The position numbers and the translations under genes were made by a program. From NCBI GenBank assembly GCA_040754075.1, contig JBFMDH010000012.1, forward strand, positions 124,001 through 188,000: a DNA stretch of 64,000 nt, in the 5' to 3' direction. Positions 16,214 through 33,000 of this stretch are shown piece by piece. The notes beneath the pieces were generated by a model, which worked only from the letters and a program-made list of their open reading frames with translations, was not told the origin of the DNA and did no database searches. The first letter of the stretch is position 1; each line of letters begins with the position of its first letter. The DNA is from Acidobacteriota bacterium. GTDB lineage: Bacteria; Acidobacteriota; Blastocatellia; UBA7656.

Positions 16214-17506
16214 TCAGTTTATGCTGGTTTTCTCTGCCAAAGGTTTTGTTTGAGCGGTTATTTTTTTCCAAGGGCATTCCAGTTGGGGTTGCTCCTGCCT
16301 TAACCTCTCGACCAACCATCTGGCGCTGGCAATTAACCAGACAATGACTGAAAGCGCAGCAAAGAGAAAGACTCCGCGATAGCCTCGCAATGGGTCTTCG
16401 GCGGTTCGCAAAACCACAGAGAGAATGCCAGCCATCATCGGACCCAACAACATCCCCAAACATCCTGCGGAATTCACCAGCGCCATCACCTGAGTGCGCT
16501 CTTCCGGCACTGCCAGTTCTGAAGCATACGCCAGTGTCGGCGCATAAATCATCGAAGAGGCTGCACCGGCGGCAATCATAACTATGGGTAGCAGTGCGGG
16601 CGATACATGACCGAGTAAAGCGAGCGCCACAGCGTAAATTGCTCCACCGGTCACCAGGATGAGCGAACGGGCGAGGCGATCAGACCAATGTCCGATGGGA
16701 TACATCGATAAAGCGAACGTGAAGGTGAGAAGCGCAAATAATAAACCAATATTGCGGTCACTCATTTCGTAAGCGCGATGGGCAAACAGCGAGAAGGTGA
16801 CGATGATACAACCCACGGTAAATCGTTCGATAAACGCTGCACAAATCGGCACGATAAGCGCCCGGCGTTTTTTTAATACCGAGAATGGCGAAGTTTTGAA
16901 CGAGTGCTGTGATGCACCGAATCGCTTGTTCGACATCATCGAAGCGACGCCAATCGAAGCAAGGATGACGCTGCCGAGCCAGAAGGGAACTCGCGGGTCG
17001 ATGGTTGTTGTGAGTCCGCCGATAGCGTTGCCCAAAGCAACGGCTGAGATAATTGCGGCACCGGCAATTCCCATGATGCGTCCACCACTGTGCCGGTGGC
17101 TGACCGTCGATGCTTGTGCCAGTAGTATGGTTGCTGCACCAACGTGCGTTGCACCTTCAAGAAATCTCAGGAATAGAACTACAGTTGTCGAAATCGGACA
17201 AGCCACAGCCAGTAATAAAAGGGCATCGCTCAATGTAAGAACCGCCAGGATTTTACGAGGGCTACCCCCTTTGATAAACCACATACTCATCAATGGAGCA
17301 GCGATGGCAGCGCCGAGCATATTGATTCCCATAAATGCATGCATTGCGCCTTCGTTGCTTGCATGATACTGAGCAAATAATGGGCGAATAGCCGGAGCCA
17401 CCAGCGTAGCCGGAAGCATCTGGAAGAAAATCGTGATTGCCAGTGGCATCAGGTTTTGCGCAGATGAGGGTTTGGGGTCTGAGAGATTTTCAAAATGCGC
17501 TTTCAC
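16214..17506 (-). CDS. MFS transporter, last gene of the GTPase/phosphatase operon
   Basis: 430 residues with about twelve hydrophobic segments and MFS features: MWFIKGGSPRKILAVLTLSDA around the loop 2-3 motif, RFLEGATHVGAA in TM4, and PIGHWSDRLARSLIL as the second-half equivalent. It is most like drug or small-solute exporters, and the substrate cannot be read from sequence. It starts with GTG, overlapping the TGA of the ABC-phosphatase gene by four bases (GTGA), so translation is coupled. An exporter fixed to a signalling cassette could release or take up the signal or product of the cassette, but this is speculative. Confidence 0.88.
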   Translation of the reverse strand: MKAHFENLSDPKPSSAQNLMPLAITIFFQMLPATLVAPAIRPLFAQYHASNEGAMHAFMGINMLGAAIAAPLMSMWFIKGGSPRKILAVLTLSDALLLLAVACPISTTVVLFLRFLEGATHVGAATILLAQASTVSHRHSGGRIMGIAGAAIISAVALGNAIGGLTTTIDPRVPFWLGSVILASIGVASMMSNKRFGASQHSFKTSPFSVLKKRRALIVPICAAFIERFTVGCIIVTFSLFAHRAYEMSDRNIGLLFALLTFTFALSMYPIGHWSDRLARSLILVTGGAIYAVALALLGHVSPALLPIVMIAAGAASSMIYAPTLAYASELAVPEERTQVMALVNSAGCLGMLLGPMMAGILSVVLRTAEDPLRGYRGVFLFAALSVIVWLIASARWLVERLRQEQPQLECPWKKITAQTKPLAEKTSIN

Positions 17507-18621
17507 AATTGCTTCCTTCCCTGGGTTGAGGTTTGTTCAGCAAAACGTCTAATGAATGCTTCCTGGGAGCGATTCTGTATATATCCACGAGCCACTGAGC
17601 GAACCTGCTCAATAGCCTTTTCAGGTGCATAGCCAATCCATACCAGATAGGCGGCTAGCATCGTCCCGGTGCGCCCCATGCCGGCTTGGCAATGCAACGC
17701 GACGCCTTCTCCATTAGCGATGACCTTTTCAATATCCCGGCAAAGCCTAGCCGCCGGACTGATGGCTGGAATTCCCATGTCTTTGATGGGGAAATGTCTT
17801 CCCCTCATCCCAAATGATTTGAGCTGGGGAAGTGGAAATGGCTCTTCGGTAAGCGATACCACGAGTTTGATGCCGGACTGTGCAATCGCTGTCAGGTCTT
17901 CATCCGCATCACCAAGCAATCCGGGGCGACCCATCCCGGCAAGCTGGTGACGAATGAGCCAATTGAAATGCGACGGCAATGGCGGATTTGGTGGGGGATA
18001 TGAACAGTTGCCCTGTTCGAGAAATCGCGCGATTAGCTCATTAGGTGGATGATTGAAAAAGGTGTCAGCATCAGCACTAATGAGCAAATGTTTACCATAT
18101 AGAAATGCTACATCATCGGCTATTGAGCGGGCGAAATCGAGATGATGCGTGACCACAACAGCAGCGCCCTGGGTTTTATGATGGTTTATGCGATTAACCA
18201 ATTCTGCAATGCTTTCCGCCGTCTCTCCAACCGTCGGTTCATCCAACAGTAGAGTTTTCGCCCCGGATTGAAATACGCTGTCCCAATTTCTTTGGAATTG
18301 CCCGGTAAGTGAGGGAGTGGCAACGAAATTGGCTGACTTTAATTGGCGGAGCCGGAAGATGTCACAGGTTAGGAGATGATTAAGTGGCATTTGCTGAAAA
18401 TCGATTGATTTATAATACCAATCTCCCCAAAGCTTCCACCTCAGCTTGACGGTTTCGCCGCTCAAGGCTTTCAACAAAGAGCTTTTGCCAGTTCCTCCCG
18501 GACCGAGAATGACTGTCGTAGCCCGGTTTTGCACCTGCCAATTTATCGCACCACAGATCAAGCCCTCCGGTCCTTCAATTTCACCATTACAAATCTCATA
18601 CAATTTTGTGTGCTGAAACAT
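17503..18621 (-). CDS. Fusion of an ABC-type ATPase domain and a dual-specificity protein phosphatase
   Basis: 372 residues. Residues 1-205 are an ABC-type nucleotide-binding domain: Walker A GPGGTGKS near residue 39, Walker B TLLLDEPT near 150 and an H-loop VVVTHHLDF. The LSGGQ signature expected before Walker B is missing; that position reads DSVFQSGAK. Residues 225-365 are a DSP/PTP-type phosphatase: NWLIRHQLAGMGRPG, LVVSLTEEPFP, a general-acid Asp candidate in IKDMGIPA, and the P-loop HCQAGMGRTG with catalytic Cys and Arg (CX5R). Start and stop are fused to both neighbours (TAATG and GTGA overlaps). I know of no described family with this pairing, and the gene product is unnamed. Confidence 0.85.
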   Translation of the reverse strand: MFQHTKLYEICNGEIEGPEGLICGAINWQVQNRATTVILGPGGTGKSSLLKALSGETVKLRWKLWGDWYYKSIDFQQMPLNHLLTCDIFRLRQLKSANFVATPSLTGQFQRNWDSVFQSGAKTLLLDEPTVGETAESIAELVNRINHHKTQGAAVVVTHHLDFARSIADDVAFLYGKHLLISADADTFFNHPPNELIARFLEQGNCSYPPPNPPLPSHFNWLIRHQLAGMGRPGLLGDADEDLTAIAQSGIKLVVSLTEEPFPLPQLKSFGMRGRHFPIKDMGIPAISPAARLCRDIEKVIANGEGVALHCQAGMGRTGTMLAAYLVWIGYAPEKAIEQVRSVARGYIQNRSQEAFIRRFAEQTSTQGRKQL

Positions 18622-19370
18622 TATCGTCCCTCTCTCAATCGCTCAGCCAGCGTACCGGGCAAACAGGCATTTGCGATAGATTTTGCGGTAGCTTCGATGT
18701 CATAGGCGACTCGATGAATTTCCACCTGGCGGGCGGCAATATCAATAATTGCAAATGCCGCGCGCGAGTCGCCGTCGCGCGGTTGTCCAACCGAACCGGG
18801 ATTGATGAGCACAGCCCGTGCCGATGCAGGCCAATTCAGCGTTTTGTCAGGTTTGCATTCGACAATTTTTCCCTGATCCAACCACCCGACCATCGGCGTA
18901 TGAGTGTGACCGCATAACCCGATATGCGGCCAGCCTTCTCTTGCAAGAATGGCGTTGAGATTAGCTTCCAACATGGTTCCGGTTACATAACCGGTTATAT
19001 GCGTGTCATTGAGATAACATCCATGCACAGCAACGAACCCTTCAGGGTCAATGATGCGGTTGGGCAGATTCGCCAAATAAGCACGGTCATCGGATGAGAG
19101 TTGGCTGCGTGTCCAGGCTTGGATTAAGTGGGCTGTGGAATGAGTGCCAGGGGCTTGGGAAATCCCCGCAACGTCATGGTCATGATTTCCGGCGACGACG
19201 ATCTGACATCGAGTCCGAATCAGGTGAATGCATTGCGCAGGTTCCGCATTATAACCAACCAAATCACCAAGACAGACCATTCGGTCGATGCCCAAATGAC
19301 TGATGGCGTCAAACACCGTTTCAAGCGCGCTTAGGTTTGCGTGAACGTCAGCTAAGATGGCGATTCTCAT
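18621..19370 (-). CDS. Metallophosphoesterase (YfcE/MPP-like)
   Basis: 249 residues from ATG 19370. The frame is open for another 414 bp upstream, but that part lies inside the GTPase gene and has no protein-like pattern. The two-metal phosphoesterase motifs are complete: LADVHANLSALE (D-x-H), CLGDLVGYNAEP (GD), VVAGNHDHD (GNH), VHGCYLND and LCGHTHTP (GHxH), then INPGSVGQPRDGD. Such enzymes hydrolyse phosphomono- or phosphodiesters, some acting on phosphoproteins or cyclic nucleotides. The start codon lies 1 bp after the GTPase-kinase stop and the TAA overlaps the next ATG, so it is translationally coupled on both sides. Confidence 0.92.
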   Translation of the reverse strand: MRIAILADVHANLSALETVFDAISHLGIDRMVCLGDLVGYNAEPAQCIHLIRTRCQIVVAGNHDHDVAGISQAPGTHSTAHLIQAWTRSQLSSDDRAYLANLPNRIIDPEGFVAVHGCYLNDTHITGYVTGTMLEANLNAILAREGWPHIGLCGHTHTPMVGWLDQGKIVECKPDKTLNWPASARAVLINPGSVGQPRDGDSRAAFAIIDIAARQVEIHRVAYDIEATAKSIANACLPGTLAERLREGR

Positions 19371-19371
19371 C

Positions 19372-21222
19372 TCACGAATTCCCTTGGTACTGACCGTGTG
19401 AAATCGTTTTTGCCAGCCGACGGCGGGCAAGTTTTGCCGTGTCGGTTCGCACCAGTACCTGTTCAATGGCGCGCTCCAAATCAAGGGCTTCAACGTCCTG
19501 CCCTGATATACGAGATTGGAGCAGCCCGCCGAGGGCTTCGACATAGGCATAAATGGCTCTATCGTATTGGGCGTATTCCTCAACGCGATGCAGCATGGCG
19601 TAACCAATCGAAGGAAGATAATTTCCTTCAACGATGTCATCGTCGAGATAAACAACTTGTCCATCAATGATGGCGAAGTTACTAGGATGAACATCAAGGG
19701 CGATATTTCTGCGTGCAGCCAGAAGCAGCGAATCGACAATCGCATCGGCATATTTAACCAGCGCCGCAGCCAGCGCGTCTTCATCGTTTTCTTCGCAGGC
19801 TTCGTTCATCTCGGCTCTCAGAGTGACCACCCAGGGAGCCACCGTCCACAGCCAATAGGTTTGGTTATTATCCGGTTGAATGGAGACCACAGTATCGCCA
19901 AGCGCAAAGTGATGGAGAGAGAGTTTCGCTCTGGCGAGATGCAGTAAAGCGCTGCGAGCTGCATCGCTCGATTTGAAACCTCTTCTTGATGAGGTCTTCA
20001 AACACCATTGACCGGCTTGAAAAATAAAAACATCCGATTTGCCGCTGCCATCAAGATGCCCGCGTTGAGAGATAAGGTCGTCCCTCAATGACGGTATTTC
20101 CGTCGCCAACTCTCGCAAAATTTCCCGACCGGATGCGGGCCAGATGAACCCGCTCGGCACTTCACCGGTTGGCAACGGGGGCCAGTGAACGGTGGGATAA
20201 GATGTGAATTGCGGATGAAATTCGGGCGTCAGGTTTTCCAGATTTTCCCTGATGATAGTCGGGTCTAAAAGTGTTGCAGACCATTCGCTGGCTTGAACAA
20301 AACTGCTGGTTTCGACTACCGGCAAAACAGATTGAGAGTCGATTATTTCTACCGGCTCGCTTTCTTGCGCAGTATTCTCGCAACCTTCGTCGCTTTCTTG
20401 CGCAGTATTCTCGCAACCCTCGGCGCTTTCTTGCTCATGGTTCAATTGGTCAGGCGTTTCGCACTCCGTTGCGAGTGTTACGCTTGATTCAATCTCGTGT
20501 TCATCGTTTAGCGAAATTGGTTGAGCGGGCGTTTGTTCTTCTATCACCGGTTGCTTAAACCCATTGTATAAAACATCGCATTCGACCATCTGGCTATAAA
20601 GTTGATCTTTGGTTTCGGAAATCCCCACAATGCTTTCCAATCCGTGTTCAAGGATGGTTTGCTGCGTCAGGGTAGCTGCCGCTCTGATGGCAAGCACCAC
20701 GGTCTCACGCACCCCGATGCCTTCTTGGGCGCAAGCTGACACGATTGATGTGGTTTCTTCAAGCCCCAATTGGTTTAGCAATTCATTGGCTGGAAGTGAA
20801 TCGACTAAATCCTGTTTATTAGCCTGGACAACCAGTGGTATATCGCTGCCGATAATGGTGAGCAGGTTGTGAATCGCTTGTTGATTGTTTTCAAGTTCGC
20901 TCGGAGTTGAATCGCAGACGAAGACCACGACATCGGCAGTCTGCAAAAGATATTTGCGTCGTTCGTTGAAGATTTGCTGACCGGGAACCGTCAACAGTTG
21001 ACAACGCAACCCGTATCCGCCAACAACCCCGCCTTCCACCTGAAGCCAATCAAAGAAAAGCGTTCTTCCGCCCATCTCTTCCGGGACGTACAATTCACTG
21101 CGACGCATCTTGGTAAAAAATTTGCAGAGTTGCTGAAGGTTCGTGGTTTTCCCAGCTTTTCCCGGGCCATCATAAACCACTCTGACAATAACCTTCTGTT
21201 GGTCGCGATCAAAAATTGCCAT
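19372..21222 (-). CDS. MglA-like small GTPase fused to a kinase-like domain
   Basis: 616 residues. Residues 1-195 are a Ras-like GTPase of the MglA type: P-loop GPGKAGKTTNL, TVPGQQIFNERRKYLL in place of DxxG, and NKQD. Residues 215-340 are an acidic low-complexity linker that contains an 11-residue repeat. Residues 345-616 look like a distant protein/aminoglycoside kinase-type fold: a possible beta-3 Lys in WCLKTS, ALDVHPSNFAI as the D-x4-N catalytic loop, and VVYLDDD as the metal-binding Asp. The kinase assignment rests on these motifs only. Roadblock proteins, the usual regulators of MglA GTPases, are encoded just upstream, and phosphatase-type genes follow 1 bp after the stop. GGGAG precedes the ATG. 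Confidence 0.85.
   Translation of the reverse strand: MAIFDRDQQKVIVRVVYDGPGKAGKTTNLQQLCKFFTKMRRSELYVPEEMGGRTLFFDWLQVEGGVVGGYGLRCQLLTVPGQQIFNERRKYLLQTADVVVFVCDSTPSELENNQQAIHNLLTIIGSDIPLVVQANKQDLVDSLPANELLNQLGLEETTSIVSACAQEGIGVRETVVLAIRAAATLTQQTILEHGLESIVGISETKDQLYSQMVECDVLYNGFKQPVIEEQTPAQPISLNDEHEIESSVTLATECETPDQLNHEQESAEGCENTAQESDEGCENTAQESEPVEIIDSQSVLPVVETSSFVQASEWSATLLDPTIIRENLENLTPEFHPQFTSYPTVHWPPLPTGEVPSGFIWPASGREILRELATEIPSLRDDLISQRGHLDGSGKSDVFIFQAGQWCLKTSSRRGFKSSDAARSALLHLARAKLSLHHFALGDTVVSIQPDNNQTYWLWTVAPWVVTLRAEMNEACEENDEDALAAALVKYADAIVDSLLLAARRNIALDVHPSNFAIIDGQVVYLDDDIVEGNYLPSIGYAMLHRVEEYAQYDRAIYAYVEALGGLLQSRISGQDVEALDLERAIEQVLVRTDTAKLARRRLAKTISHGQYQGNS
20358..20434 (-). repeat. 33-bp in-frame tandem repeat in the GTPase-kinase linker
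   Basis: Two almost identical 33-bp copies (20358-20390, 20391-20423) and the first 11 bp of a third encode an 11-residue unit rich in Glu, Ser and Cys (ESDEGCENTAQ). The length is a multiple of three, so copy changes would shorten or lengthen the linker without a frameshift. Confidence 0.9.
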
Positions 21223-21370
21223 GCAAAGTGCTCCCGCTTATTTGAAATCATTGAGACAAAAGTAAAGGGGCTGATAAACATTAGCGGTCGGTAGTGACTC
21301 ACTCCACGAAGGACACTTGAACGAGCAGGAATTTTGCAGTGCCCCTCGTGAAGGGTGAGGCTGTCGAGGT

Positions 21371-21775
21371 TCAGGCTGCAGCTTCAACTGCTGCCATGCT
21401 GCCGCGAGCTTTGGTTATCACCATCCCGAGATTGGCGCTCGCGCGGCAGACCGTCACCAAAACCATATCCTCATTGCGTTTGGCTCGTTGAAAGACATGA
21501 ATCAGGTTGTCAGATAGGACAATGATTTCCTGAAAATAATGGTGCCCATCATCGCGAATTCCGCGCTGTTGTTTAAACAACCGTTCAACGGTGGTGACGT
21601 TGTTGCCCTGAAAGAGATCGCCGGTTGCTGCGGCAACCAGATCAAGGACTTCCTGCGGATGACTATCTACGGTTTTGATTCCCAGCAGCATCCCGGTTTT
21701 CATATCAACAAAACCGGCGGCAACACACTCCGGAACGTTTTTCTGCAAATTTGCAAGTTCAGCATCTAAACTCAT
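21371..21775 (-). CDS. Roadblock/LC7-like protein (third of three)
   Basis: 134 residues with the roadblock pattern: an N-terminal helix, VAAGFVDMKTGMLLGIKT (beta hairpin), a helix with VLDLVAAATGDLFQG, then HYFQEIIVLSDNLIHVFQRAKRNEDMVLVTVCRASANLGM. Roadblock (MglB-like) proteins dimerise and regulate Ras-like GTPases, commonly as GAPs. It is more divergent from the two upstream roadblock modules than they are from each other and ends in an Ala/Val tail. A GGAG sits 6 nt before the ATG. The GTPase-kinase gene starts 148 bp downstream. Confidence 0.85.
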   Translation of the reverse strand: MSLDAELANLQKNVPECVAAGFVDMKTGMLLGIKTVDSHPQEVLDLVAAATGDLFQGNNVTTVERLFKQQRGIRDDGHHYFQEIIVLSDNLIHVFQRAKRNEDMVLVTVCRASANLGMVITKARGSMAAVEAAA

Positions 21776-21833
21776 GTTGTCTCCTTTATCAGATTGAACA
21801 AATGGCTGTGGGGCAAGATATTCCCCTTATCAA

Positions 21834-22241
21834 TTAAGGAACCAGCGGTTCAATATCCGGCATAACTGATTTCAGTTGTGCCCAACCCATCCCGATATTG
21901 GTGGTCTTTTTGGTCACCAGCATGATTACCGCTTTGCCACCTTTTAGCGTCTTGGCAAAATGATAATTATGGATGGAGGTGATATGGACTTCTTCAAAAT
22001 AATGCTGGCCGTTTTCCGAAATCCCACGATGCGCCCGCACCATTTGTTCAATGCGCCCGATATTGGAACCGCGAAACATATCCATCGTTGCGGCTGCCAC
22101 AACTTCATTTAGCGTTTGAGTGTATTGCGAAGAATTATGGATTCCGAGCAACATCCCGGTATCGAGGTCAACCACTCCACAAGCCACCGCGCCGTCAACT
22201 TTATCTACGACACTTTTACATGCGTCATCAATCTTACCCAT
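21834..22241 (-). CDS. Roadblock/LC7-like protein (second of three)
   Basis: 135 residues, a single roadblock domain: VDGAVACGVVDLDTGMLLGIHN, VVAAATMDMFRG, RIEQMVRAHRG, HYFEEVHITS and a C-terminal IMLVTKKTTNIGMGWAQLKSVMPDIEPL. The last 30 residues closely match the C-terminus of the REC-DUF4388-roadblock protein encoded immediately upstream, which indicates recent duplication within the locus. It probably forms homo- or heterodimers with its neighbours to control the MglA-like GTPase. An AAGGAAA motif precedes the ATG. Confidence 0.88.
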   Translation of the reverse strand: MGKIDDACKSVVDKVDGAVACGVVDLDTGMLLGIHNSSQYTQTLNEVVAAATMDMFRGSNIGRIEQMVRAHRGISENGQHYFEEVHITSIHNYHFAKTLKGGKAVIMLVTKKTTNIGMGWAQLKSVMPDIEPLVP

Positions 22242-22331
22242 ATTGAGTTTCCTTCCTTTTTTTACTTTGTTTTGAAAAGCGATTGCTTATCTGAGGGGCA
22301 GACTAAAAACCAAAATAAATGCGCCAATGAA

Positions 22332-23519
22332 TTAAATGATTAGCGGCTCAAGAAGCGGCAACACCGATTTCAATTGCGCCCAACCTCTGCCGATATAGGT
22401 GGTTTTTTTGGTCACCAGAATAATGACTGCACGCCCGTTGCAGATGGTTTTGGCGAAGTGGAAATGATGTTTGGAGATGATATGAATCTCCTCAAAATAA
22501 TGTTTTCCATCTTCTTTCACGCCTCGATGCGCACGGGTCATCTGTTCAATTTGGCTGATCCGTGTGCCTCTGAATAAATCAACAGCGGCTACAGCAAAGA
22601 GTTGATTGAGGTTTTCGGTGAACGGCAGGGTGTTATGAATTCCCATCAACTGACCGGTTTCGAGATTGACAATCCCACAGATCACCGACCCATCAACGCG
22701 AGTGAGAATCTCTTTACAGGCTGTGCTTACCGTTTCTTGATTGACCCCGCTATTCGGATGATTTGCCGCCGGTTCATCTTCATTTTCGGATTCCCAATCC
22801 TCTTCAAGTTTTTCATCCAGTAACCGACACCCTTCCATGAGGAGTTCCTGCCAACCCAGGGTAATGCTTCGTTCCGTCGATACCTCGCCAGCATTCATTT
22901 TGAATTGACCGCCTTCCCAGGTGAGCAGATTGTAAAAGGCTTCTTCGCCGCATCGGTTTTGACACTCAGCATGGACAACGTTGCCACGCTCAAACCAAAT
23001 CATGCCGGATTCAGAACCTCTGGTGATCTCAAGCGCCCCGGTGGCATTTGCCAGCGCGTAGATTTGTACCAGGTCGGGAAGCATTGGCAACGAAATTGAG
23101 CCTGAAAATCCTTGATGTTTTGCCAGCGCCCGATTAATCGCCGCGAGAAACACTTCAAAGTCAAATGGTTTTTCCAAATACTCTATGGCGCCGCGCCGCA
23201 TCACCTCTTGTCGCACTTCCGGGGTGTTGTAAGCGGTGATGATGATGATCGGCAGATTGGCAACCACTTCACGCGCTTTTAAAGCGAGTTCCAAGCCGTT
23301 CATCCGTGGCATCCGAACGTCTGTGACCAAGAGATTGGGTGGCGACTGTCGGATTCGAGCGAGCGCCTCAACCGGGTCAACGAACCCCTCGAATTCGATA
23401 TCCGGACTTTCACGGACGAATTGCCTGGATATTGTCCAAACCAAGTGTTCCTCATCATCTACCATGACCACTCGACCTTTCATAGGTTTGCCTTGAATGC
23501 ATTCGATATGCCGAACCAT
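22332..23519 (-). CDS. REC-DUF4388(PATAN)-roadblock signalling adaptor
   Basis: 395 residues. A receiver domain at about 13-130 has its phospho-acceptor Asp in LLVTDVRMPRM and Lys in YLEKPFDF. A DUF4388/PATAN domain at about 145-245 reads LPDLVQIYALANATGALEI and MIWFERGNVVHAEC. A roadblock domain at about 265-395 reads VDGSVICGIVNLETGQLMGIHN. It would link phosphorelay input to GTPase control. An alternative ATG at 23483 would start directly at the receiver (MKGRVVMVDDEE); GAGAG precedes 23519 and AAGG precedes 23483, so the start is open. It lies 112 bp after the NtrC gene at 23632. Confidence 0.9.
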   Translation of the reverse strand: MVRHIECIQGKPMKGRVVMVDDEEHLVWTISRQFVRESPDIEFEGFVDPVEALARIRQSPPNLLVTDVRMPRMNGLELALKAREVVANLPIIIITAYNTPEVRQEVMRRGAIEYLEKPFDFEVFLAAINRALAKHQGFSGSISLPMLPDLVQIYALANATGALEITRGSESGMIWFERGNVVHAECQNRCGEEAFYNLLTWEGGQFKMNAGEVSTERSITLGWQELLMEGCRLLDEKLEEDWESENEDEPAANHPNSGVNQETVSTACKEILTRVDGSVICGIVNLETGQLMGIHNTLPFTENLNQLFAVAAVDLFRGTRISQIEQMTRAHRGVKEDGKHYFEEIHIISKHHFHFAKTICNGRAVIILVTKKTTYIGRGWAQLKSVLPLLEPLII

Positions 23520-23631: not shown

Positions 23632-24990
23632 TCAGGATGTGACCGGTTTAATTCCATACTCTCTCAGGTGTCGCCGCAAAGCGACTCTCGACATTGCCAG
23701 GATTGAAGCGGCGCGCGTGAGATTTTCACCGGTGCTTTTATAAGTTGCCAGGATATGCTGCTTGATGACCGCTTCAAGTGGAGAAGGGGTTGCGCAAGGG
23801 GATGGGAAGTTCGGTTTAAATTTCACCGCCCCGGATATTTCTATCGGCAGGTCGCACACCTTTATTTCCGCACCGCGAGCCAGCACCAGCGCGCGTTCGA
23901 TGACGTTTCTTAACTCACGAACATTACCGGGCCACGCATACTGTTCCAGTTTCTCAAGCGCATCTCGGGAAATTGACAGATGCGGCTTGCCGACCTCGCC
24001 GCGAAGTTTAGCGACGAAATGCAGCGCCAGACGCGAGATGTCACCCGTCCGCTTTCTCAAAGCAGGGAGATGGATTTCGATGACTTTAAGGCGATGGTAG
24101 AGGTCTTCTCTGAACCGCCCCAGTTTGACCTCTTCGGATAAATCGCGGTTGGTGGCTGAGATGATGCGCACATCGGAATGAATTTCTCTTTCACCCCCCA
24201 CTCTACGGAACGGATGACCTTCGAGCACTCTTAACAGTTTGGCTTGGATTTCACGCGGCAGTTCGGCTACTTCATCAAGAAATAATATTCCGCCGGAAGC
24301 GAGTTCAAATAATCCTCGACGGCTGTTCCGGGCATCCGTAAAAGCCCCGGCTTCGTGTCCGAATAACTCTGACTCAAGAAGTGTCGGCGGAAAGCAGGCG
24401 GCATTGACGGTGACAAATGATCCTGAAGCGCGTTTGCTTAAACCGTGAAGCAAACGCGAACAAACCTCTTTGCCGGTTCCGGTTTCGCCTGTAAGTAACA
24501 CCGGTGTGCGTGGCGCAGTTGCCGCCGCTTCAATCTCATTCACTGCCTGTCGCCATATGGGTGATTCGCCAATCGTTGCTGCCCGTTCAGTCTCCATGCG
24601 CTGCATAGCTTCAAGCAATCGCCGCAATGATGAATTCTCAATCGCCCGCGATACCACGTTAATCAGGACTTCGGAAGTAATCGGCTTGGTAAGATAATCG
24701 GTTGCCCCTAATCGCAAAGCTTTAACTGCGCTGGTGGCATTGTCACGACCGGTCAATACGACGACCGGACAAACCGCGTCCTCTTCCTTCAAAGTGGCGA
24801 GCACTTCCATGCCGTCAGCATCGGGCAATCCCAAATCCAGAAGCACTAAATCGAAAGTGGATTGAGAAACCGCTTCAAGAGCAGATGTGGCATCAGCGAC
24901 TACGCGAACCTCATAATGATAGCGCGATAGAATCGCGTTAAAGGCAAAGGCGAGGTCTTCGTCGTCCTCAATCAATAAAACAGATTTCAT
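23632..24990 (-). CDS. NtrC-family response regulator with variant GAFTDA loop
   Basis: 452 residues from ATG 24990, which begins directly with the receiver (MKSVLLIEDDEDLAFAF). The open frame reaches 25200 but that extra part overlaps the kinase gene and is not protein-like. Domains: REC (Asp in LVLLDLGLPD), AAA+ (GETGTGKE, GGILFLDEVAELP) and Fis-type HTH (LTRAASILAMSRVALRRHL). The sigma-54-contacting loop reads GAFTDA instead of GAFTGA, with ESELFGHEA before it intact. Its first 23 bases overlap the end of the kinase gene, so the two are coupled and form a cognate pair. Confidence 0.93.
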   Translation of the reverse strand: MKSVLLIEDDEDLAFAFNAILSRYHYEVRVVADATSALEAVSQSTFDLVLLDLGLPDADGMEVLATLKEEDAVCPVVVLTGRDNATSAVKALRLGATDYLTKPITSEVLINVVSRAIENSSLRRLLEAMQRMETERAATIGESPIWRQAVNEIEAAATAPRTPVLLTGETGTGKEVCSRLLHGLSKRASGSFVTVNAACFPPTLLESELFGHEAGAFTDARNSRRGLFELASGGILFLDEVAELPREIQAKLLRVLEGHPFRRVGGEREIHSDVRIISATNRDLSEEVKLGRFREDLYHRLKVIEIHLPALRKRTGDISRLALHFVAKLRGEVGKPHLSISRDALEKLEQYAWPGNVRELRNVIERALVLARGAEIKVCDLPIEISGAVKFKPNFPSPCATPSPLEAVIKQHILATYKSTGENLTRAASILAMSRVALRRHLREYGIKPVTS

Positions 24991-26953
24991 CTTCCTTTTC
25001 CCAGACCGGCAAAAATAAACTAAAAATGGTTTCAACCCCTGGAGTAGATGAGAGCAGCAAATGCCCGTGATTGCTCTCAACCAGACGTTGGGCGATTGAA
25101 AGCCCAAGACCTGTCCCCTTGGGTTTGGTTGTAAAAAACGGGTCGAAAACGTAGGGGATGAGGTCTTCGGCAATCCCCGTGCCGTCATCCTGGATGTCAA
25201 TGCGAATCATTTTGGCTCCGTGTTTCTTCAGGTTGAAAGCGACGGGTTCGCTGGAACCCGCGATGCGAATACGTGACGGCTCGCCGACTGAATCCAGGGC
25301 GTTTTCAATGAGCGTCAGCAGCACCTCGACAATCTGTCCTTCATCGACATAAGCCGATGGCAGATCGTCATTCATCTCGACAACCGGAGTAGTTGAATAA
25401 TCTTTAAATCGTGGGGCGAGAATATCGAGGGTGTTTTCGATTAGCGAAGCCGGATTGCAAATTTGTAATCGCGGAAGCTTAGGCTTGCCGAAATGCAGAG
25501 AGGTGGTGACCAGATGTTCGATTCGTTGAAGTAAAGAAAGCGACCGGCGAATATATTCCTGCCTGGGATCGGTCGGTTCGGTTTCAGCCATCAGGATTTC
25601 CGAAAGCGACCGCAGCGCGGCAAGCGGATTGCGAACTTCATGGGCAAACCCCGATGCCATGTGCCCTAGAGCGGTTAGCCGCTCAACTCTGCGCAATTCC
25701 ATTTCAATCTGGTGGCGACTGCTCAGGTCTCTGAATAAAAGCACGTAGCCGAATTCCGGCAGACGGGCATCTTTGGGCGCAATGATCGTCATACCGATAT
25801 CGAGTTTTCGCCTGCTCGAAGTCGTCAGTTCAAAATCAATGCGTTGCTCGCCGCTTTTTTCGGCTGCAAGCAACGCTTCCTGAAGCTTTTTATTTTTGCC
25901 AAAAACTTCGAGCACATCCTTTCCGAGTGACTGGGCAGAAGTCCCTTCGATGGTGCTTAGCGCCATGCGGTTGACGAATGAAATTAAGCCTTGCGGATTG
26001 GTGGTGATGATGCCTGCGGTAATCTCATCAAGGATGGTTTCGGTGAAGCGTCGGCGCTCTTTCATCGTATTAAATGCCAACTCCATTTCCTTTGTAAGAT
26101 TGGCAATATGTTGACGCTCGTTTTTTATTTCAGCCGCTTCTACCTGTGGCGTCACATCGGATATTAATACAGCTTGATGGGTGACGGGTTTTTTTGAATT
26201 CAAGACCGGGGTGATTTTTATATCTCCCCAAAAGGATGAACCATCTTTTCGATAAACTTTTGCCACCATCTGTTTATGGTTTTCGGTTAATCCTTTAAAA
26301 ACGGATTCATCTGCAAAGGCGCTGAAGAACCATTCATTGCGTCCAACCACATCCGCAGACGAATATCCGGTCAAGGTTTCAAATGCCTGATTTACTTCTA
26401 TAATTGGCAGGTTGCGAAAGCTGCGGTCAACGATAAGCATTGCTTCGCCCGCGTGAGTGAATAAGGTTTCCATTATCGACAACCGTAAAGCGGATTGCTT
26501 GCTTCGTAAAATGGTGTCGGCGCGATTTTGTAATAGAGCGGGAAATAAAGGGTAGGTTAGAAAATCATCCGCGCCTGCCTTCAAAAAATCATTGGGAGCG
26601 ATTTGCGTTTCAGTGCCGATAACCACAATGGCAGCCTTCTCACCAGAAGACAATAATCGAATCCTTTGACAAATGGATAAGGCATCAGCGGGCTTGATAA
26701 GCGAATCGACGATAACCAGATCAGGTTCAAGTCTACGAAAAAGTAATTCGACGTCATTGCCATCGGCAGCCTCAAACAGATGAAAAGTGTTTCCACTAAA
26801 AATGTGCCGTACCAATTCGCGAATTGAGGCATCGGTTATCGCCAGCAAGACAACTGTCTTGCCGGTGTTGGCTATTCTTTTCTCAGTTTTTTTCCGCATC
26901 GTCGTGAGCAGCTTATTACCCGTTGTTTTATCTTTAACTGAGAGATTATTCAT
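24968..26953 (-). CDS. Hybrid REC-PAS-PAS histidine kinase
   Basis: 661 residues, cytosolic. A REC-like domain at about 30-150 (LEPDLVIVDSLIKP; acidic pocket less canonical) is followed by PAS 1 at about 160-285, a coiled coil, PAS 2 at about 305-420, HisKA with FAHEVRNPLAALRSL near residue 440, and a HATPase to the end (ENALDSVGEP, DDGTGIAEDLIPYVFDPFF, GTGLGLS). All ATP-binding boxes are present. An N-terminal receiver before the sensor domains suggests it receives phosphoryl input from another kinase as well as sensing directly. It overlaps the start of the NtrC gene. Confidence 0.93.
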   Translation of the reverse strand: MNNLSVKDKTTGNKLLTTMRKKTEKRIANTGKTVVLLAITDASIRELVRHIFSGNTFHLFEAADGNDVELLFRRLEPDLVIVDSLIKPADALSICQRIRLLSSGEKAAIVVIGTETQIAPNDFLKAGADDFLTYPLFPALLQNRADTILRSKQSALRLSIMETLFTHAGEAMLIVDRSFRNLPIIEVNQAFETLTGYSSADVVGRNEWFFSAFADESVFKGLTENHKQMVAKVYRKDGSSFWGDIKITPVLNSKKPVTHQAVLISDVTPQVEAAEIKNERQHIANLTKEMELAFNTMKERRRFTETILDEITAGIITTNPQGLISFVNRMALSTIEGTSAQSLGKDVLEVFGKNKKLQEALLAAEKSGEQRIDFELTTSSRRKLDIGMTIIAPKDARLPEFGYVLLFRDLSSRHQIEMELRRVERLTALGHMASGFAHEVRNPLAALRSLSEILMAETEPTDPRQEYIRRSLSLLQRIEHLVTTSLHFGKPKLPRLQICNPASLIENTLDILAPRFKDYSTTPVVEMNDDLPSAYVDEGQIVEVLLTLIENALDSVGEPSRIRIAGSSEPVAFNLKKHGAKMIRIDIQDDGTGIAEDLIPYVFDPFFTTKPKGTGLGLSIAQRLVESNHGHLLLSSTPGVETIFSLFLPVWEKEDEICFID

Positions 26954-27021: not shown

Positions 27022-27918
27022 TTACTTTAATAATGTACTGATCCATCGATAACTTTTTCCGTTCTCTGCTTTCCTGATTCTCAGATAGGTGTGCAGCTTT
27101 TTTAAATATGAACCGAGTTTGGGAAAAGGATGATTAAAATCAGATATAAATTCCTGATGAAGCAAGTCGCTTGCAATCAGTTCCGCGCCCCGCATCGGTG
27201 GGGAGAGCAGGAATCCTTGAAGCATATTGATTCCCAGTCCAAGAACCCTTTCCATATCTGCAAGATTTTCGATTCCCTCAGCGATTACTTCCGAATGAAA
27301 CTCTCGTGCAATGTAGGCGAGCGATTCAAGGATAACGCGGCGATGTCTATCCGTTGAGCAATTCTTGATCAGGTGTTTATCGGCTTTGATATAATCCGGT
27401 CTGCAATCAAGTATCATTTTGAAATTAGAATAGCCACTACCCACATCATCCAGGGCGAGGCTTACGCCGCTTTCTCTGAGCGCGTTTAAGGTTTGTAAAA
27501 ACTTGGAATAATCCCTGATGGTTCCTTGTTCGGTAATTTCCAATGTCACACGCGAAAGCGAGATGTTGAATTTTCTCGATAGCTCCACCAGAAAATAAGC
27601 AAAGTCGCTGTGGCGCTCAAGCGTGACCGCGTGCAAATTTAGAAACAGGTGTTGCCACGTAACCAATCCGGCAGCCGCGTTTAATGCTTCCGTTATACAG
27701 GCGCGATCCACAAGCGGCTCTTCTTTTTTTCTGCGCACATAATCAAAGAGAATATCCGCCCTTTCAAAACTGCTGCCTTTCGGTCCTCGGCTCAGGCATT
27801 CCAGTCCCTGAACGCATCCTCCGACTGGCGTGAAGCGGAAAATCGGTTGGAAAACCACGGATATTCCGCCGGGCTGGAGGATGGCATCAAGTTTTGAGGG
27901 GGTGCCGTTCGCGTTCAT
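27022..27918 (-). CDS. Stand-alone EAL-domain c-di-GMP phosphodiesterase
   Basis: 298 residues, an EAL domain alone. The E-x-L signature reads GLECLSRG, so the metal-binding Glu is kept. LNLH, EITEQG, LALDDVGSGYSN, YIKADKHL and AEGIEN provide the other metal and catalytic positions, so hydrolysis of c-di-GMP is plausible. The ATG overlaps the stop of the upstream REC gene by four bases (ATGA), making a two-gene REC/EAL unit comparable to PvrR-like regulators split into two proteins. The unit lies behind a sigma-54 promoter. Confidence 0.92.
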   Translation of the reverse strand: MNANGTPSKLDAILQPGGISVVFQPIFRFTPVGGCVQGLECLSRGPKGSSFERADILFDYVRRKKEEPLVDRACITEALNAAAGLVTWQHLFLNLHAVTLERHSDFAYFLVELSRKFNISLSRVTLEITEQGTIRDYSKFLQTLNALRESGVSLALDDVGSGYSNFKMILDCRPDYIKADKHLIKNCSTDRHRRVILESLAYIAREFHSEVIAEGIENLADMERVLGLGINMLQGFLLSPPMRGAELIASDLLHQEFISDFNHPFPKLGSYLKKLHTYLRIRKAENGKSYRWISTLLK

Positions 27919-28295
27919 AAAACCACATTCATCAACGAAGAGATTCGTCGGTCGATCTCTGAAAGCGGTTGCGGTTTATGAAGGAACATATCGGCACCCA
28001 AACTACGGGCTTCTTTTTCTACTTCTTCACTGCCATATGCCGTCAAAACGATGATGCCGATATCCAGACATTGCTTGCGAATGAATTTGATTAACGTCAG
28101 TCCGCTGGAAATGTCTAGGCGGGTCAGGCGTAAATCGAGGACCACGACCGAGTAACATTCATTGGCGAGGAGGGATTCGGCTTCTTCGAGTTCACTTGCA
28201 AAATTCACATCGAATCCTCTGGTTTCAAGATAAACGCGAAGGAAAAATAGAATGTCTTCTTCATCATCGACGAGTAAAACCTTTTTTGAACCCAT
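27915..28295 (-). CDS. Single-domain response regulator (CheY-like) coupled to the EAL protein
   Basis: 126 residues, one receiver: acidic pair VLLVDDEEDI, phospho-acceptor Asp in VVVLDLRLTRLD, Thr in IVLTAYG and Lys in FLHKPQPL. The loop after the Asp (RLTRLDISSGL) is longer than usual. It has no output domain and should act by protein contact, most likely on the EAL protein whose start overlaps its stop. AAGGTGA lies before the ATG. Confidence 0.92.
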   Translation of the reverse strand: MGSKKVLLVDDEEDILFFLRVYLETRGFDVNFASELEEAESLLANECYSVVVLDLRLTRLDISSGLTLIKFIRKQCLDIGIIVLTAYGSEEVEKEARSLGADMFLHKPQPLSEIDRRISSLMNVVL

Positions 28296-28627
28296 AGGTC
28301 ACCTTTAGTTTAAATTGAAAAAAGTTGATTTGTGCGGAACCGCTAGTTATTCAGTCTTTTGTCCGGCTGAAATTTCTTGAATATTTTGAAGACACAAGCT
28401 GTTTAGACTAATTCCTTGTAAACCTTGAAAGAAGCACCCATAACCAAAATCATAGCTAGAATCCACTGATGTTTTATTATGTGCCAAGCTCTAAGCGGAA
28501 AACCCCTGAATTTCCCCTGTGAAAATAAATAGCAAAAGCGGTGCCATTAAATAGCTGCCGAGGCGAATGGCTAAAGTCTCTGAGGGTTTGATTTAACTTC
28601 AAGGCAGATAAACGGGATGTAGAGCAA
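28296..28627. other. Intergenic leader of the REC-EAL unit
   Basis: No gene is visible in these 332 bases. The gap holds the sigma-54 promoter at 28531-28546 and a long leader. A TGGCAC on the minus strand near 28482 lacks a -12 partner. I did not recognise activator-binding palindromes with confidence. Confidence 0.6.
28531..28546 (-). promoter_or_regulatory. Sigma-54 (-24/-12) promoter for the REC-EAL unit
   Basis: On the minus strand the site reads TGGCAC-CGCTT-TTGCT, an exact fit to the TGGCAC-N5-TTGCW consensus with GG and GC ten bases apart. Transcription would begin near 28520, giving a leader of about 225 nt before the REC gene. The gene directly upstream encodes an NtrC-type activator with an intact GAFTGA loop, the obvious candidate to drive it. 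Confidence 0.8.
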
Positions 28628-30004
28628 TCAGGTTGATTGGAGACGGATGTCTACATTTCGAGACATGATAATGCCGTGCTTTTTTATCTTCTTATATAAG
28701 CCGCTTCTCGATAATCCCAAAACCACCGCCGCGCGATCCACGTTGCCGCCTTCGAGTTTGAGGGTTTCCTCAATATGAGAGCGTTCAACATCCTCAATGG
28801 TTCTTCCTTGAAAGACAGGTGCGCCAGCGGGCAAAGCGGTTGTGTCGAGTCGCAGGTCGGCTTTGGTTAGCATCTTGCCGGTACTGAGCAAGACGGCGCG
28901 TTCGAGAATGTTGCGCATCTCCCGAATATTGCCGGGCCACGGATAAGTCTTAATGGACTCAATCGCATCTCTAGACAAACTCATCTCACCGCGTCCCAAC
29001 ATGGTTGAACGATCCCTAAGCAGGTGTCGGGCAATAATCGGAATGTCATCTGGTCTTTTGCGAAGCGGCGGGATTCGCAAGGTCAGCGTATTAATCCGAA
29101 AATACAGGTCGCTCCGAAATTTCCCACTTTCCACCAGTTGATAGAGGTTTTCATGGGTGGCGGCAATCAGGCGAATATTGACTTGAAGATCGCGCACCCC
29201 GCCAAGGCGACGAAACCGTTGTTCCTCGATTGCTTTGAGCAATTTTGGTTGAACTCTTAAATCGATATCGCCAATTTCATCCAGAAAAACCGTTCCGTGA
29301 TTGGCGGTTTCAAACAGACCGGGCTTCCCGGTGATGGCTCCCGTAAAGGCTCCTTTTTCATGACCGAACAACTCAGACTCCAGCAAATCCGGGGATAACC
29401 CGGCACAATTTAAATCAACAAACGGCTCTTTGGCTCGGTGCCCATGGTCATGAATCCAGCGGGCTAATCTCGTCTTTCCCGTGCCGGTCTCTCCTTCAAT
29501 GAGAATCGGAGTATCGACATTGATAATCATCCTGACCTGTTCTGCCAGCAGTTGCATGGCGGGGCTAACCCCAAGAAATGGATTTTTATCCAGGCGATCT
29601 TTTTGAACTTCACTGATAATTTGTTTTCGGCGGTTTCGCAGGTTCTCCAAAATCCGCTCAATCACAATACAAAGGGTTGCCAATTCGATAGGCTTGGTGA
29701 GAAAGTGCTCGGCGCCTTCTTTGATCGCCTGTACCGCAAGATTAATTGAGCCGTGACCGGTTAATACGATCATCGAAATATTTTTATCAATGGCTCGCAA
29801 TTGCGGCAGTAACGTTAACGCCGTACCATCCGGCAAAGAATAATCACAAACTACAACATCAGGTTGAATCACCTGATACATATTAATCGCATCCTGGCAG
29901 TTGCCAGCCTCAGCAGTTTTATATCCTGCTTCTTTTAAATACTCACAAATTATTTGTCGCAGGTAAGATTCATCATCTACGACCAGTATCGTTCCTTTTA
30001 TCAT
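28628..30004 (-). CDS. NtrC-family sigma-54-dependent response regulator
   Basis: 458 residues: REC (Asp in VVVCDYSLPD), AAA+ with GETGTGKT as Walker A, HEKGAFTGAITGKPG, GTVFLDEIGDIDL and WPGNIREMRNILERA, and a Fis-type HTH (NVDRAAVVLGLSRSGLYKKIKK). All motifs for sigma-54 activation are canonical. It begins 15 bp after the six-PAS kinase gene and is its probable partner. The next transcription unit downstream has a textbook sigma-54 promoter. Confidence 0.95.
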   Translation of the reverse strand: MIKGTILVVDDESYLRQIICEYLKEAGYKTAEAGNCQDAINMYQVIQPDVVVCDYSLPDGTALTLLPQLRAIDKNISMIVLTGHGSINLAVQAIKEGAEHFLTKPIELATLCIVIERILENLRNRRKQIISEVQKDRLDKNPFLGVSPAMQLLAEQVRMIINVDTPILIEGETGTGKTRLARWIHDHGHRAKEPFVDLNCAGLSPDLLESELFGHEKGAFTGAITGKPGLFETANHGTVFLDEIGDIDLRVQPKLLKAIEEQRFRRLGGVRDLQVNIRLIAATHENLYQLVESGKFRSDLYFRINTLTLRIPPLRKRPDDIPIIARHLLRDRSTMLGRGEMSLSRDAIESIKTYPWPGNIREMRNILERAVLLSTGKMLTKADLRLDTTALPAGAPVFQGRTIEDVERSHIEETLKLEGGNVDRAAVVLGLSRSGLYKKIKKHGIIMSRNVDIRLQST

Positions 30005-30019
30005 ATCGAATACTTCCGC

Positions 30020-33000
30020 TTATCGCTTCAAGCAGGGTAAGCTGATGGAGACCTCAGCCCCCGGCTGTCCATCCAAACGGTTCCTGACCTGTATTTTTCC
30101 ACCGTAATCTTCGATGATTTTTTGCACCAGGGAAAGCCCAAGTCCAATTCCTCCTTTACGACGTGTAAAGAAAGGTTCAAACACTCTGGGCAGATCATTG
30201 GGATTAAATCCACAACCCTGATCGATGATGTTGCACTCTATCCAGGATTGTCCCTCTAAATCGATGCGGTTCACTTCTATGTTTATTAAACTTTTCGCGG
30301 GAGAATGTTGAAGGGCATTTTGCAGGACATTTTGAAATACCTGCGTCAGTCTATTTTGATCCATCAATATCGGTGGCGACTCGATTTTAAAATCATATTC
30401 AATCAAAACATCACGTTCGTTTTGCAGTTGTCGACACCAGTTGATTGCCTGGGCGATGACCTCTTCGATTTTTCCGTAAGCTTGCGGAGATTTATTCGGC
30501 TGACCATAATCAATCAGTTCTTCCATCAGGGAACTCAACCGCTTTACGTTTCTTGAAATGATATCGAAGTAGATCTGATATTCAGTCTTCGCATTTAAGA
30601 CTTGCTCGAAAGTTTCAACGGCTGCGGCGATACCAAAGAGGGGGTTACGAACTTCGTGTGCCACTCCGGCAATCAGTTGCCCCATCGCCGCCATTCTCTC
30701 ATTGCGCCGTAACGATTCCTGCAATTGAATGATGGGAGTAATTTCGCGGATGGTAATAATGATCAGGTTTTCTTCCGGTCGATGACCCAATAGCGGGTTG
30801 GCAGTTAAATCCCAAACCTGCCCTTGCGATTTTTCGATAGCCTGCCAGGAGATCGCCTCGCCGGATTCGATAGCAACTTTTAATAACTTACTGGCAGTTT
30901 TCCAGGGTTCAAAGGTTGCGAGGTCATTGATTGTCGCGCCAACCAGGTTTTTAAATTCGGTTATTTTAGAGGCTTCGAGAGTCGCCTGGTTTGCCCTCTT
31001 GATTCGACCAAATCTATCGGTGAGGACGATGGGGAATTCGATAGCATCAAAGGTTGTTGTCCACTCCCAGGCGGATTTTCTGAGGGCATCCTTCATCTGG
31101 TTCTGAATTTTCTCCCGCTCATTACGGTCGGTAATATCCCTGCTGGTGGTGAGCAAACATTTTCGGTCATTGATCAGAATGGTTTGCAGTGAAACCAGGA
31201 GGGTTTTCTGTTTTCCTGATTTTGATTTTACATCGATTTCCATCCCTTTGATGCTGCCGGTCGACCGGATAATTTCTTTCACACATTCAGCTTCTTCAGA
31301 GTTCGCCCAAATTTTTAGTTCCCAGGGGTCACGATTAAGCATCTCTTCACGTGCGTACCCCAGCAAGAGCAGGGCGGCTTCGTTGACGTCAATGAACTGT
31401 CCGTTTTTGGCATCATGGATACTCATTGCCGTCAGATTTTCATTGAATGCCTTTGAAAATCGCTCTTCAGAGGCGCGCAGGTCTAGCTCCATGTGCTCGC
31501 GTTCTTTCTCAGTTTTATAGGAAACGATGAGACTGCCGCAAACCGCTATGAGCGGTTGCAGAAATCTGATGATTTCCTGATGGTATCCGGCAGGGCGATT
31601 GGCAAGCCCGACCATTCCGACCAACTCTTTGTTGAAATGAATTGGCAGTCCGAGATATTTATTGATGGGCGGGTGACCCGCCGGCAATCTGCCGGTTCGC
31701 GGATCATTGGCAATCACCGGCTTATCGGTAGTAATGGTTTCACCCAAAATGGTTTGGAGATTATAAAACTCCAGATTAGGCGCGTTACTTTCATAAAGCG
31801 AGCGGGTTTCTTCATTCCAGGCAATATTGGTGATGGCATGGGTTCTGAGATAGGGAGTTCCTTCGTGGGTGTGAAGGATTTCGCCAATGAAGCCATATTC
31901 GCTTTTGGTCAGCGATAAGAAATATTCGAGGATTCTTCCAAACACCTTATTGGGTTCATCCTTGTCGATAAATTGCGATTGAATATCATTAATTGCTTCC
32001 AACAGACTTTCATTAAGGTTGCGTTCAGTGACATCCAGAATCGTCGTCAGCAGACAATCTTCACCATCTAATTCCAGGTATTCGGCTGATAGTAATCCTT
32101 CGCGAATTTCACCGGTTTTTCTCCGAAAACCGATTTCAATGTTGTTGATTGGCTTTCGCTCTTCGACCAGTTGTGCAAGTTCATTGCATACGTCTTCGTA
32201 CACCCAGAGATTCAATTGATCGGGGTTTTTGCCGATAAGTTCTTCTCGCGTATACCCGGTCGATTGCAGCGCTTTGTTATTAATGTCGAGATATTGATAA
32301 TCTTTGAGGCTGATGATGCTGTGCCAATAGGGGCTGGAATAAAAAGCCTTGGCAAAACGCTTTTGCGAAGCGCGTAAATTCCTTTCCATCGCTTTTTGTT
32401 GGCTAATATCAATCATCATTCCGCGCAGCAGGATGGATTGATCATCGGCAACAAAAAGATTGAGCTTATCCCTGAACCATACGATATGCCCGTCGGCAGC
32501 AACCATGCGATATTCAAGATTCAAATTTGGCAGTTTCTTAAATTCGTCGATGGAAAGCGTGTAATAGTTTACCATCCAAGCCTGATCAGCCGGGTGGATA
32601 TGATTGAACCAGAAATCCGCTTCCGAGAGCCATTGTTCAATCGGGTAACCCAACAACCGCTCGGCTTGTTTGCTGACAAAAGTAATCGAAAGGTTCGGCG
32701 AATGAATTTTTCCTGCCGGGTCAGGGCAGGTCGGCAGGGAGGTTAATTTTGCTTCCCAAATGATTCCGTCAATATCATTGATCAAGGATTTAACAGCCAT
32801 CTGCGATTGCTTTAATTCATCCTCCACTTTTATACGATCCGTAATATCATTGCCAATGAAGAGATTGAATCGTTCCCCCTCGAATTCTAAAATTTCTCCC
32901 GAAACCAGATAGGTTCGTATATTTCCGTCTTTTCTCCTTACCTGCATCTCGAAGTTTTTTACTGTTTTATGCTCTTTAAGGATTTCGTAGAGCTTGGATA

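Follow-up and report, generated by a model that had tools for sequence, protein, structure and literature searches.

A candidate signalling cassette built on the fusion of an MglA-type GTPase with a predicted kinase-fold domain in Acidobacteriota and Myxococcota

MglA-type GTPases are polarity and motility switches that have binding partners as their outputs, and MglB is the GTPase-activating protein of MglA. In the polarity module of Myxococcus xanthus (MglA, MglB, MglC and RomR/RomX), a receiver-domain protein serves as input (PMC9481161), and in the actinobacterial conservons (CvnA–D) a histidine kinase, a roadblock protein and an MglA-family GTPase are encoded together (PMC4316618). Here we describe a seven-gene cassette in a 64,000-nucleotide stretch (the window) of contig JBFMDH010000012.1 from an Acidobacteriota bacterium, in which an MglA-type G domain is fused to a predicted kinase-fold domain and accompanied by roadblock proteins, a metallophosphoesterase (MPE) and a fusion of an ABC ATPase with a dual-specificity phosphatase (ABC–DSP). 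The initial annotation had proposed a candidate undescribed signalling system, and the gene order conserved across two phyla together with the predicted kinase fold uphold that proposal. This is very probably a real, conserved signalling cassette and apparently an undescribed one; partial coverage of the literature on MglA modules returned no description of it, an absence that counts as weak evidence.

The cassette shares with the M. xanthus module a Group 1 MglA G domain, roadblocks of predicted MglB fold and an input protein with a receiver (REC) domain, but its G domain is fused to a kinase, its MPE and ABC–DSP are encoded in the same operon, and its receiver protein additionally carries a roadblock domain and DUF4388, which we take to be the PATAN domain. 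PATAN proteins near mglA genes were noted earlier (PMC4316618). The joint encoding of histidine kinase, roadblock protein and GTPase is likewise common to conservons and the cassette, but the conservon GTPases are single-domain proteins of Group 2, and neither kinase-fold fusions nor phosphatases have been described for conservons. Whereas a Group 2 GTPase has GTPGQ and lacks the G2 arginine, the cassette protein has TVPGQ and retains the arginine, and no CvnC-type domain is present among the Pfam matches of the cassette.

The GTPase–kinase fusion and its partner proteins

All seven genes are located on the minus strand at window positions 16214–23519, as the initial annotation had placed them and as the sequence and Pfam matches confirm, within a 201-kb contig of a 7.58-Mb genome (completeness 100, contamination 0.11). 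They are transcribed in the order REC–DUF4388–roadblock, free roadblock proteins Rb2 and Rb3, GTPase–kinase, MPE, ABC–DSP and MFS transporter (Table 1). A single base separates the TGA stop of the GTPase–kinase gene from the ATG of the MPE gene (TGAgATG), the MPE and ABC–DSP genes overlap at TAATG, and the ABC–DSP and MFS genes overlap at GTGA. These junctions had been described correctly, but the fixed stoichiometry read from them was overstated, as overlapping genes do not imply it. The MPE gene starts at the ATG at 19370, which corrects the start at 19784 given by mechanical open reading frame calling.

The G domain of the 616-aa fusion protein matches the Arf-type G domain of Pfam (5.4e-9), and its nearest solved structures are MglA of Thermus (9.1e-30) and MglA of M. 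xanthus (1.7e-24). In the alignment it exhibits GPGKAGKT, an arginine adjoining the G2 threonine, TVPGQ and NKQD, and all of the Group 1 MglA signature motifs described by Wuichet and Sogaard-Andersen are therefore present (G1 GxxxxGK[TS], G2 Arg, G3 TVPGQ and G4 NKxD; PMC4316618). Roadblock homologues lie within four genes of it (≤4), Rb3 and Rb2 being the two preceding genes. Because the protein spans 616 aa with its kinase domain and falls outside the 150–240 aa of single-domain MglA proteins, it is, judged by its sequence, an MglA-type G domain in a fusion rather than an MglA protein. The main survey of prokaryotic small GTPases dropped sequences longer than 240 aa (PMC4316618), and the kinase-fused family therefore fell outside it. 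A tree of 35 G domains separates those fused to a kinase from single-domain MglA with moderate support (90/72).

The kinase domain was identified by motifs and fold alone: searches of its sequence against Pfam and the PDB returned nothing, and no Pfam family convincingly matched the domain when ten members were searched. It contains D-x4-N followed by the next Asp 18 residues on, the spacing seen in protein kinases, and Lys69, Asp170, Asn175 and Asp188 (domain numbering) are invariant among its close members. The AlphaFold model of the domain has a mean pLDDT of 92.2, and the matches listed by Foldseek for this model are almost all kinases, with modest E-values. A second look with VIA-align gave Z ≥ 5 for 974 of 999 chains, the best matches being human PRPK and yeast Bud32 (Z 10.6, root-mean-square deviation 4.3, 190 residues), followed at Z 8.5–9.4 by eukaryotic kinases, APH enzymes, RIO and AceK. 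The predicted structure has a two-lobed kinase fold with the catalytic Lys, DxxxxN and the Mg-binding Asp in place, so that the domain called kinase-like in the initial annotation is kinase-like in its model, with its catalytic residues intact. These results support a kinase fold for the domain and, as modelled, define it as a new kinase-fold family. The linker between the G and kinase domains contains short near-identical repeats (SAEGCENTAQESDEGCENTAQES; window 20271–20450, minus strand), and its length may vary.

The REC–DUF4388–roadblock protein shows clear Pfam matches to Response_reg (7.5e-21) and DUF4388 (1.8e-22), but the Pfam model Robl_LC7 recognises none of the three roadblocks of the cassette, nor did any of them match in a whole-genome search. 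Some relatives of MglB are known to escape the Pfam roadblock model (PMC4316618). The structure of Rb2 was predicted because a profile–profile comparison between the cassette roadblocks and local canonical MglB fell short of significance; the roadblock profile also found no match among PDB sequences. The structural elements in the AlphaFold model of Rb2 (pLDDT 89.7) are arranged in roadblock order, and M. xanthus MglB leads the PDB matches of the model, ahead of LAMTOR/MP1 proteins, which indicates a roadblock fold of MglB-like type. The C-terminal domain fused to REC shares 58% identity with Rb2, and in one alignment Rb3 shares 33% with Rb2. The claim of three roadblock modules thus stands on a predicted fold, since Robl_LC7 misses all three.

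The MPE matches Metallophos_2 (2.3e-18) and keeps all of the metal-ligand motifs DxH, GDxxG, GNHD and GHTH, which are invariant in the aligned members. Its nearest solved relative is 3rqz, an uncharacterised MPE (1.7e-36), and weaker structural relatives include an annotated diadenosine tetraphosphatase and phosphodiesterases; the MPE also matches the YfcE family model. The ABC–DSP protein matches ABC_tran (2.4e-6), Tc-R-P (3.8e-24) and PTP-SAK (2.8e-18). Its DSP half has HCxAGxGRTG, an HCx5R motif accompanied by a general-acid Asp, with the Cys, Arg and Asp invariant in the aligned members, and is nearest to a DSP family protein, DUSP23 and SsoPTP. The ABC half is nearest to PstB and keeps Walker A and Walker B, with no LSGGQ signature between them in the aligned members; in longer ABC–DSP relatives, LSGGQ remains only in a degenerate form.

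Conservation and modularity of the cassette

A species-level genome collection was scanned with six kinase domains, which yielded eight loci, all in Acidobacteriota or Myxococcota, and the window proteins and small hidden Markov models were then mapped onto these and further loci (numbered with L; genomes with G). The GTPase–kinase, MPE and ABC–DSP genes are consecutive on one strand in the window and in four Myxococcota loci (L034, L035, L037 and L074, the last in G612), each of which has Rb2 and Rb3 upstream. In L035, L037 and L074, REC–DUF4388 precedes the cassette and shares its strand; in L034 it lies on the opposite strand. Kinase, MPE and ABC–DSP also occur in L032 (Polyangia) and L038 (Vicinamibacteria), two loci cut short by a contig end that falls within or ahead of the kinase. 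The junctions at these relatives are gaps of a few bases or overlaps. Averaged over the four Myxococcota loci, identity to the window is 74% for Rb2, 73% for Rb3, 54% for the GTPase, 43% for the kinase, 52% for the MPE, 36% for the ABC half and 53% for the DSP half, making the roadblocks the slowest-evolving parts. To judge from these sequences, the gene order has outlasted large divergence and reaches well beyond close relatives of the window.

The cassette is rare. Strong kinase matches were found in 5 of 396 sampled Acidobacteriota, with distant GTPase fusions in three more, and the close kinase form in 3 of 379 Myxococcota, with only distant relatives in seven more. Strict Rb2 is present in four Acidobacteriota genomes, all with the kinase (Fisher p 5e-9), and the cassette-type full-length ABC–DSP in three Myxococcota genomes, those with an intact GTPase–kinase (p 1e-7); both values ignore shared ancestry. 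The acidobacterial genome G375 has REC–DUF4388, Rb2, Rb3 and a cassette-type ABC–DSP without the kinase. In the window, L038, L032 (opposite strand) and L114, the MFS gene is found near the cassette; in G421 it lies elsewhere in the genome, and beside the cassettes of L034, L035, L037 and L074 it is absent. The exporter named in the initial annotation is thus present here but missing from most cassettes elsewhere, and appears to be accessory. Horizontal transfer between phyla was considered and set aside, as the kinase-plus-MPE tree does not resolve it and a grouping of the Blastocatellia rows is not rejected (approximately unbiased test, p 0.265); a plasmid origin, with one weak G-domain match only, was also set aside.

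The state of the kinase follows the presence of the MPE. Among 25 scorable kinase domains (L038 being left out as incomplete), the four catalytic residues are intact in all 10 with an adjacent MPE, and all 13 degenerate domains lack one (Fisher p 2e-5, uncorrected for ancestry). Two intact kinases have no adjacent MPE: that of L022, whose genome has a second copy with an MPE, and that of L025. In L079, the kinase domain on the GTPase is degenerate, and a second, separate kinase, very divergent but retaining all four residues, forms a fusion with an MPE and adjoins Rb2, Rb3 and ABC–DSP. Because of the joint loss and the L079 kinase–MPE fusion, the comparison supports a coupling of kinase and MPE.

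Further variants of these parts were observed. The L025 gene (9349–10920, minus strand) encodes a 523-aa REC–kinase fusion with all catalytic residues and has no other cassette gene nearby. Fusions of an MglA-type GTPase to a degenerate kinase domain occur in Myxococcota and Acidobacteriota (L044, L046, L067–L069, L075–L078, L080–L084 and L110), often adjoin weakly matching roadblock-like proteins, and possibly form a family of GTPase–pseudokinase switches. DSP matches at E 1e-25 or better were obtained in 37 of 379 Myxococcota. A pair of long-form ABC–DSP and Rb3 is widespread in this phylum (L109, L111–L113 and L116–L119), mostly with no GTPase or kinase nearby, and is preceded by a TPR protein in L109 and L119.

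A proposed phosphorylation cycle and competing explanations

Gene order, fusions, predicted folds, conserved residues and co-conservation form the basis of our interpretation of the cassette as a G-protein-gated reversible phosphorylation module, to which we assign a probability of about 0.5. A histidine kinase would phosphorylate the receiver domain of the REC–DUF4388–roadblock protein, and dimerisation of its roadblock with Rb2 and Rb3 would set the nucleotide state or the partners of the GTPase, for which MglB and RomR provide precedent. The GTPase is covalently joined to an apparently catalytically complete atypical kinase, which may be active and gated by it. This kinase would most likely phosphorylate a protein, and the MPE would reverse that mark, whereas ABC–DSP with Rb3 would form a second, separable phosphatase arm, probably directed at phosphotyrosine or dual-specificity targets. 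Here we infer the nucleotide gating, the substrate, the direction of control and the output. The phosphorylation cycle suggested in the initial annotation gains support as a hypothesis from these comparisons.

Several observations weigh against such a module. In Blastocatellia loci L021–L024 (three genomes), Rb2 and the kinase, mostly with the MPE, have no adjacent GTPase, Rb3 or ABC–DSP, and the longer ABC–DSP lies beside Rb3 in 10 of 11 further Myxococcota loci, with no GTPase nearby in 9 of the 11. Because these sets occur without an adjacent GTPase, GTP gating would not be needed for every use of the cassette parts, and the roadblocks, which had been taken to control the GTPase, are not tied to it alone. 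For the same reason, the window cassette appears to be two roadblock-plus-phosphatase modules, Rb2 with kinase and MPE and Rb3 with ABC–DSP, joined through the GTPase–kinase fusion. The kinase domain can also serve without catalysis, since many relatives carry a degenerate kinase on the GTPase. In addition, relatives of the MPE include nucleotide hydrolases, and the co-occurrence statistics ignore shared ancestry.

That the kinase domain serves the GTPase mostly for docking or as an effector, with weak or secondary phosphotransfer and signalling by binding, is rather unlikely. At least 12 relatives have a GTPase fused to a degenerate kinase domain, and Bud32-like kinases can act chiefly as ATPases, but the four catalytic residues are kept in every MPE-bearing cassette, including the very divergent L079 kinase. 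We consider it unlikely that the domain is a small-molecule kinase related to APH or Bud32, in a cassette that modifies, dephosphorylates and exports a metabolite or antibiotic under the control of the GTPase and roadblocks. APH enzymes and methylthioribose kinase are among its structural matches (Z 8.6–9.0), and the MFS transporter that ends the operon weakly resembles multidrug and tetracycline efflux proteins; however, Bud32/PRPK gives the best structural match, protein kinases score on a par with APH, the DSP half is nearest to protein phosphatases, and the cassette mostly occurs without the transporter.

The Ap4A (diadenosine tetraphosphate) hydrolases, phosphodiesterases and YfcE model among the weaker MPE relatives, together with an EAL protein upstream, would suit a kinase and MPE that work on a nucleotide second messenger, either Ap4A or a cyclic nucleotide, instead of a protein mark. 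Pfam finds no nucleotide cyclase or synthetase in the cassette, however, and kinase folds are not known to produce such messengers, so that this explanation is improbable. A defence or nucleic-acid-repair system, in which the kinase, MPE and phosphatase would act in end processing or like toxins, is very improbable: although PTP-SAK and Tc-R-P, matched by the DSP half, are named after repair or toxin contexts, PADLOC gives generic ATPase matches only, the fold is protein-kinase-like and not that of a P-loop polynucleotide kinase, and the inputs of the cassette are two-component proteins. Chance proximity of unrelated genes might account for the inconstant MFS gene and parts of the upstream region, but the same order persists at 36–74% identity per component in two phyla, and the parts co-occur, which makes it extremely improbable for the cassette as a whole.

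Neighbouring regulators and relation to known systems

Same-strand regulators extend the locus upstream to ~34 kb (Table 1), and some of them are conserved beside the cassette elsewhere. Relatives of the REC, EAL and PAS histidine kinase proteins (40–42% identity) precede REC–DUF4388 in L121, and a relative of the second NtrC-type regulator is encoded close to the kinase in L022 (52% identity) and close to the cassette in L037, L038 and L074. REC–DUF4388 is also fused to Rb2 in L037, L074 and L114, and histidine kinases adjoin REC–DUF4388. The second NtrC regulator of the window adjoins a multi-PAS/GAF-like sensor histidine kinase of 1383 aa (30020–34171, minus strand), and a similar histidine kinase/NtrC pair is found beside the cassette-type kinase of L022. 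With one mismatch allowed, the sigma-54 consensus occurs 16 times in the window against 11.65 expected, which is no enrichment, and only the exact match ahead of the operon is therefore listed in Table 1. Sigma-54-like matches occur in L024 at 5639 and 7216 (plus strand), upstream of the NtrC and REC–DUF4388 genes, and none was found in most other loci.

Two further similarities were noted in the surroundings. Proteins that resemble ferredoxin/flavin reductases and are alike in their C-terminal region are encoded near the cassette in L034 (14241–16172, minus strand) and beside ABC–DSP and Rb3 in L119 (9859–11436, plus strand). AMP-binding/acyl-carrier/acyltransferase fusion genes lie less than ~20 kb from the kinase in the window (37693–40212, plus strand) and in L021 (1132–3966, plus strand), possibly by chance.

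Table 1 Cassette genes, their domains and the upstream regulators, in window coordinates
Feature	Positions	Strand	Basis
REC–DUF4388(PATAN)–roadblock, 395 aa	22332..23519	-	Response_reg, DUF4388; C-terminal domain Rb2-like
Rb2, free roadblock protein, 135 aa	21834..22241	-	AlphaFold model; top PDB matches M. xanthus MglB
Rb3, second free roadblock protein, 134 aa	21371..21775	-	Identity to Rb2
GTPase–kinase, whole gene, 616 aa	21222-19372	-	
MglA-type (Group 1) G domain of GTPase–kinase	20620..21222	-	MglA structures, G motifs
Acidic repeat-containing linker, G domain to kinase domain	20194..20619	-	Lies between HMM-matched domains; sequence
Predicted kinase-fold domain of GTPase–kinase	19390..20193	-	Motifs, model, Bud32/PRPK structural match
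Metallophosphoesterase (MPE), 249 aa	18621..19370	-	Metallophos_2, metal-ligand motifs, 3rqz match
ABC–DSP, whole gene	18621-17503	-	
ABC-ATPase half of ABC–DSP, without LSGGQ	17980..18621	-	ABC_tran, PstB-like, alignment
Dual-specificity/PTP phosphatase half of ABC–DSP	17503..17979	-	HCxAGxGRTG and general-acid Asp
MFS transporter, accessory	16214..17506	-	MFS_1 1.6e-37
NtrC-type sigma-54 regulator, directly upstream of cassette	23632..24990	-	Sigma54_activat 3.4e-63
PAS histidine kinase with N-terminal REC	24968..26953	-	Relative (41%) beside L121 cassette
EAL-type (cyclic di-GMP phosphodiesterase-like) protein	27022..27918	-	Motif reading; relative (42%) in L121
Stand-alone REC protein	27915..28295	-	Sequence; relative (40%) in L121
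Sigma-54 promoter-like site TGGCACCGCTTTTGCT, upstream of REC gene	28531..28546	-	Consensus match only
Second NtrC-type regulator	28628..30004	-	Relatives beside cassette in L022, L037, L038, L074

Bud32/PRPK is the best structural match of the kinase domain, but the two share 11–14% identity with no sequence-profile match, and the cassette has no KEOPS partners. The cassette would define a kinase-fold family together with roadblock proteins that Pfam misses, and, because related genomes hold versions with an intact and with a degenerate kinase, the role of catalysis can be tested directly. If the proposed phosphorylation module is correct, a covalent kinase output and dedicated phosphatases give bacterial small GTPases an enzymatic arm. 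Roco proteins and LRRK2 also carry a Ras-like G domain on the same polypeptide as a kinase domain, but the G domain of the cassette is of MglA type and its kinase belongs to another family, and no COR domain follows the G domain among Pfam matches at E up to 1; the resemblance is architectural only. The Ragulator/LAMTOR scaffold brings GTPases and a kinase pathway together, and its p14–MP1 proteins share the roadblock fold predicted for Rb2, but neither its kinase nor its GTPases are homologous to those of the cassette, and the likeness is one of analogy. We suggest only tentatively, at somewhat less than even odds, that a bacterial G protein here directly gates a covalently attached kinase, which would be a protein kinase of a new family, that two dedicated phosphatases oppose it and that roadblock dimers organise the system, as a counterpart of the eukaryotic GTPase–kinase logic of LRRK2 and Ragulator/MP1 from the MglA side of the small-GTPase tree.

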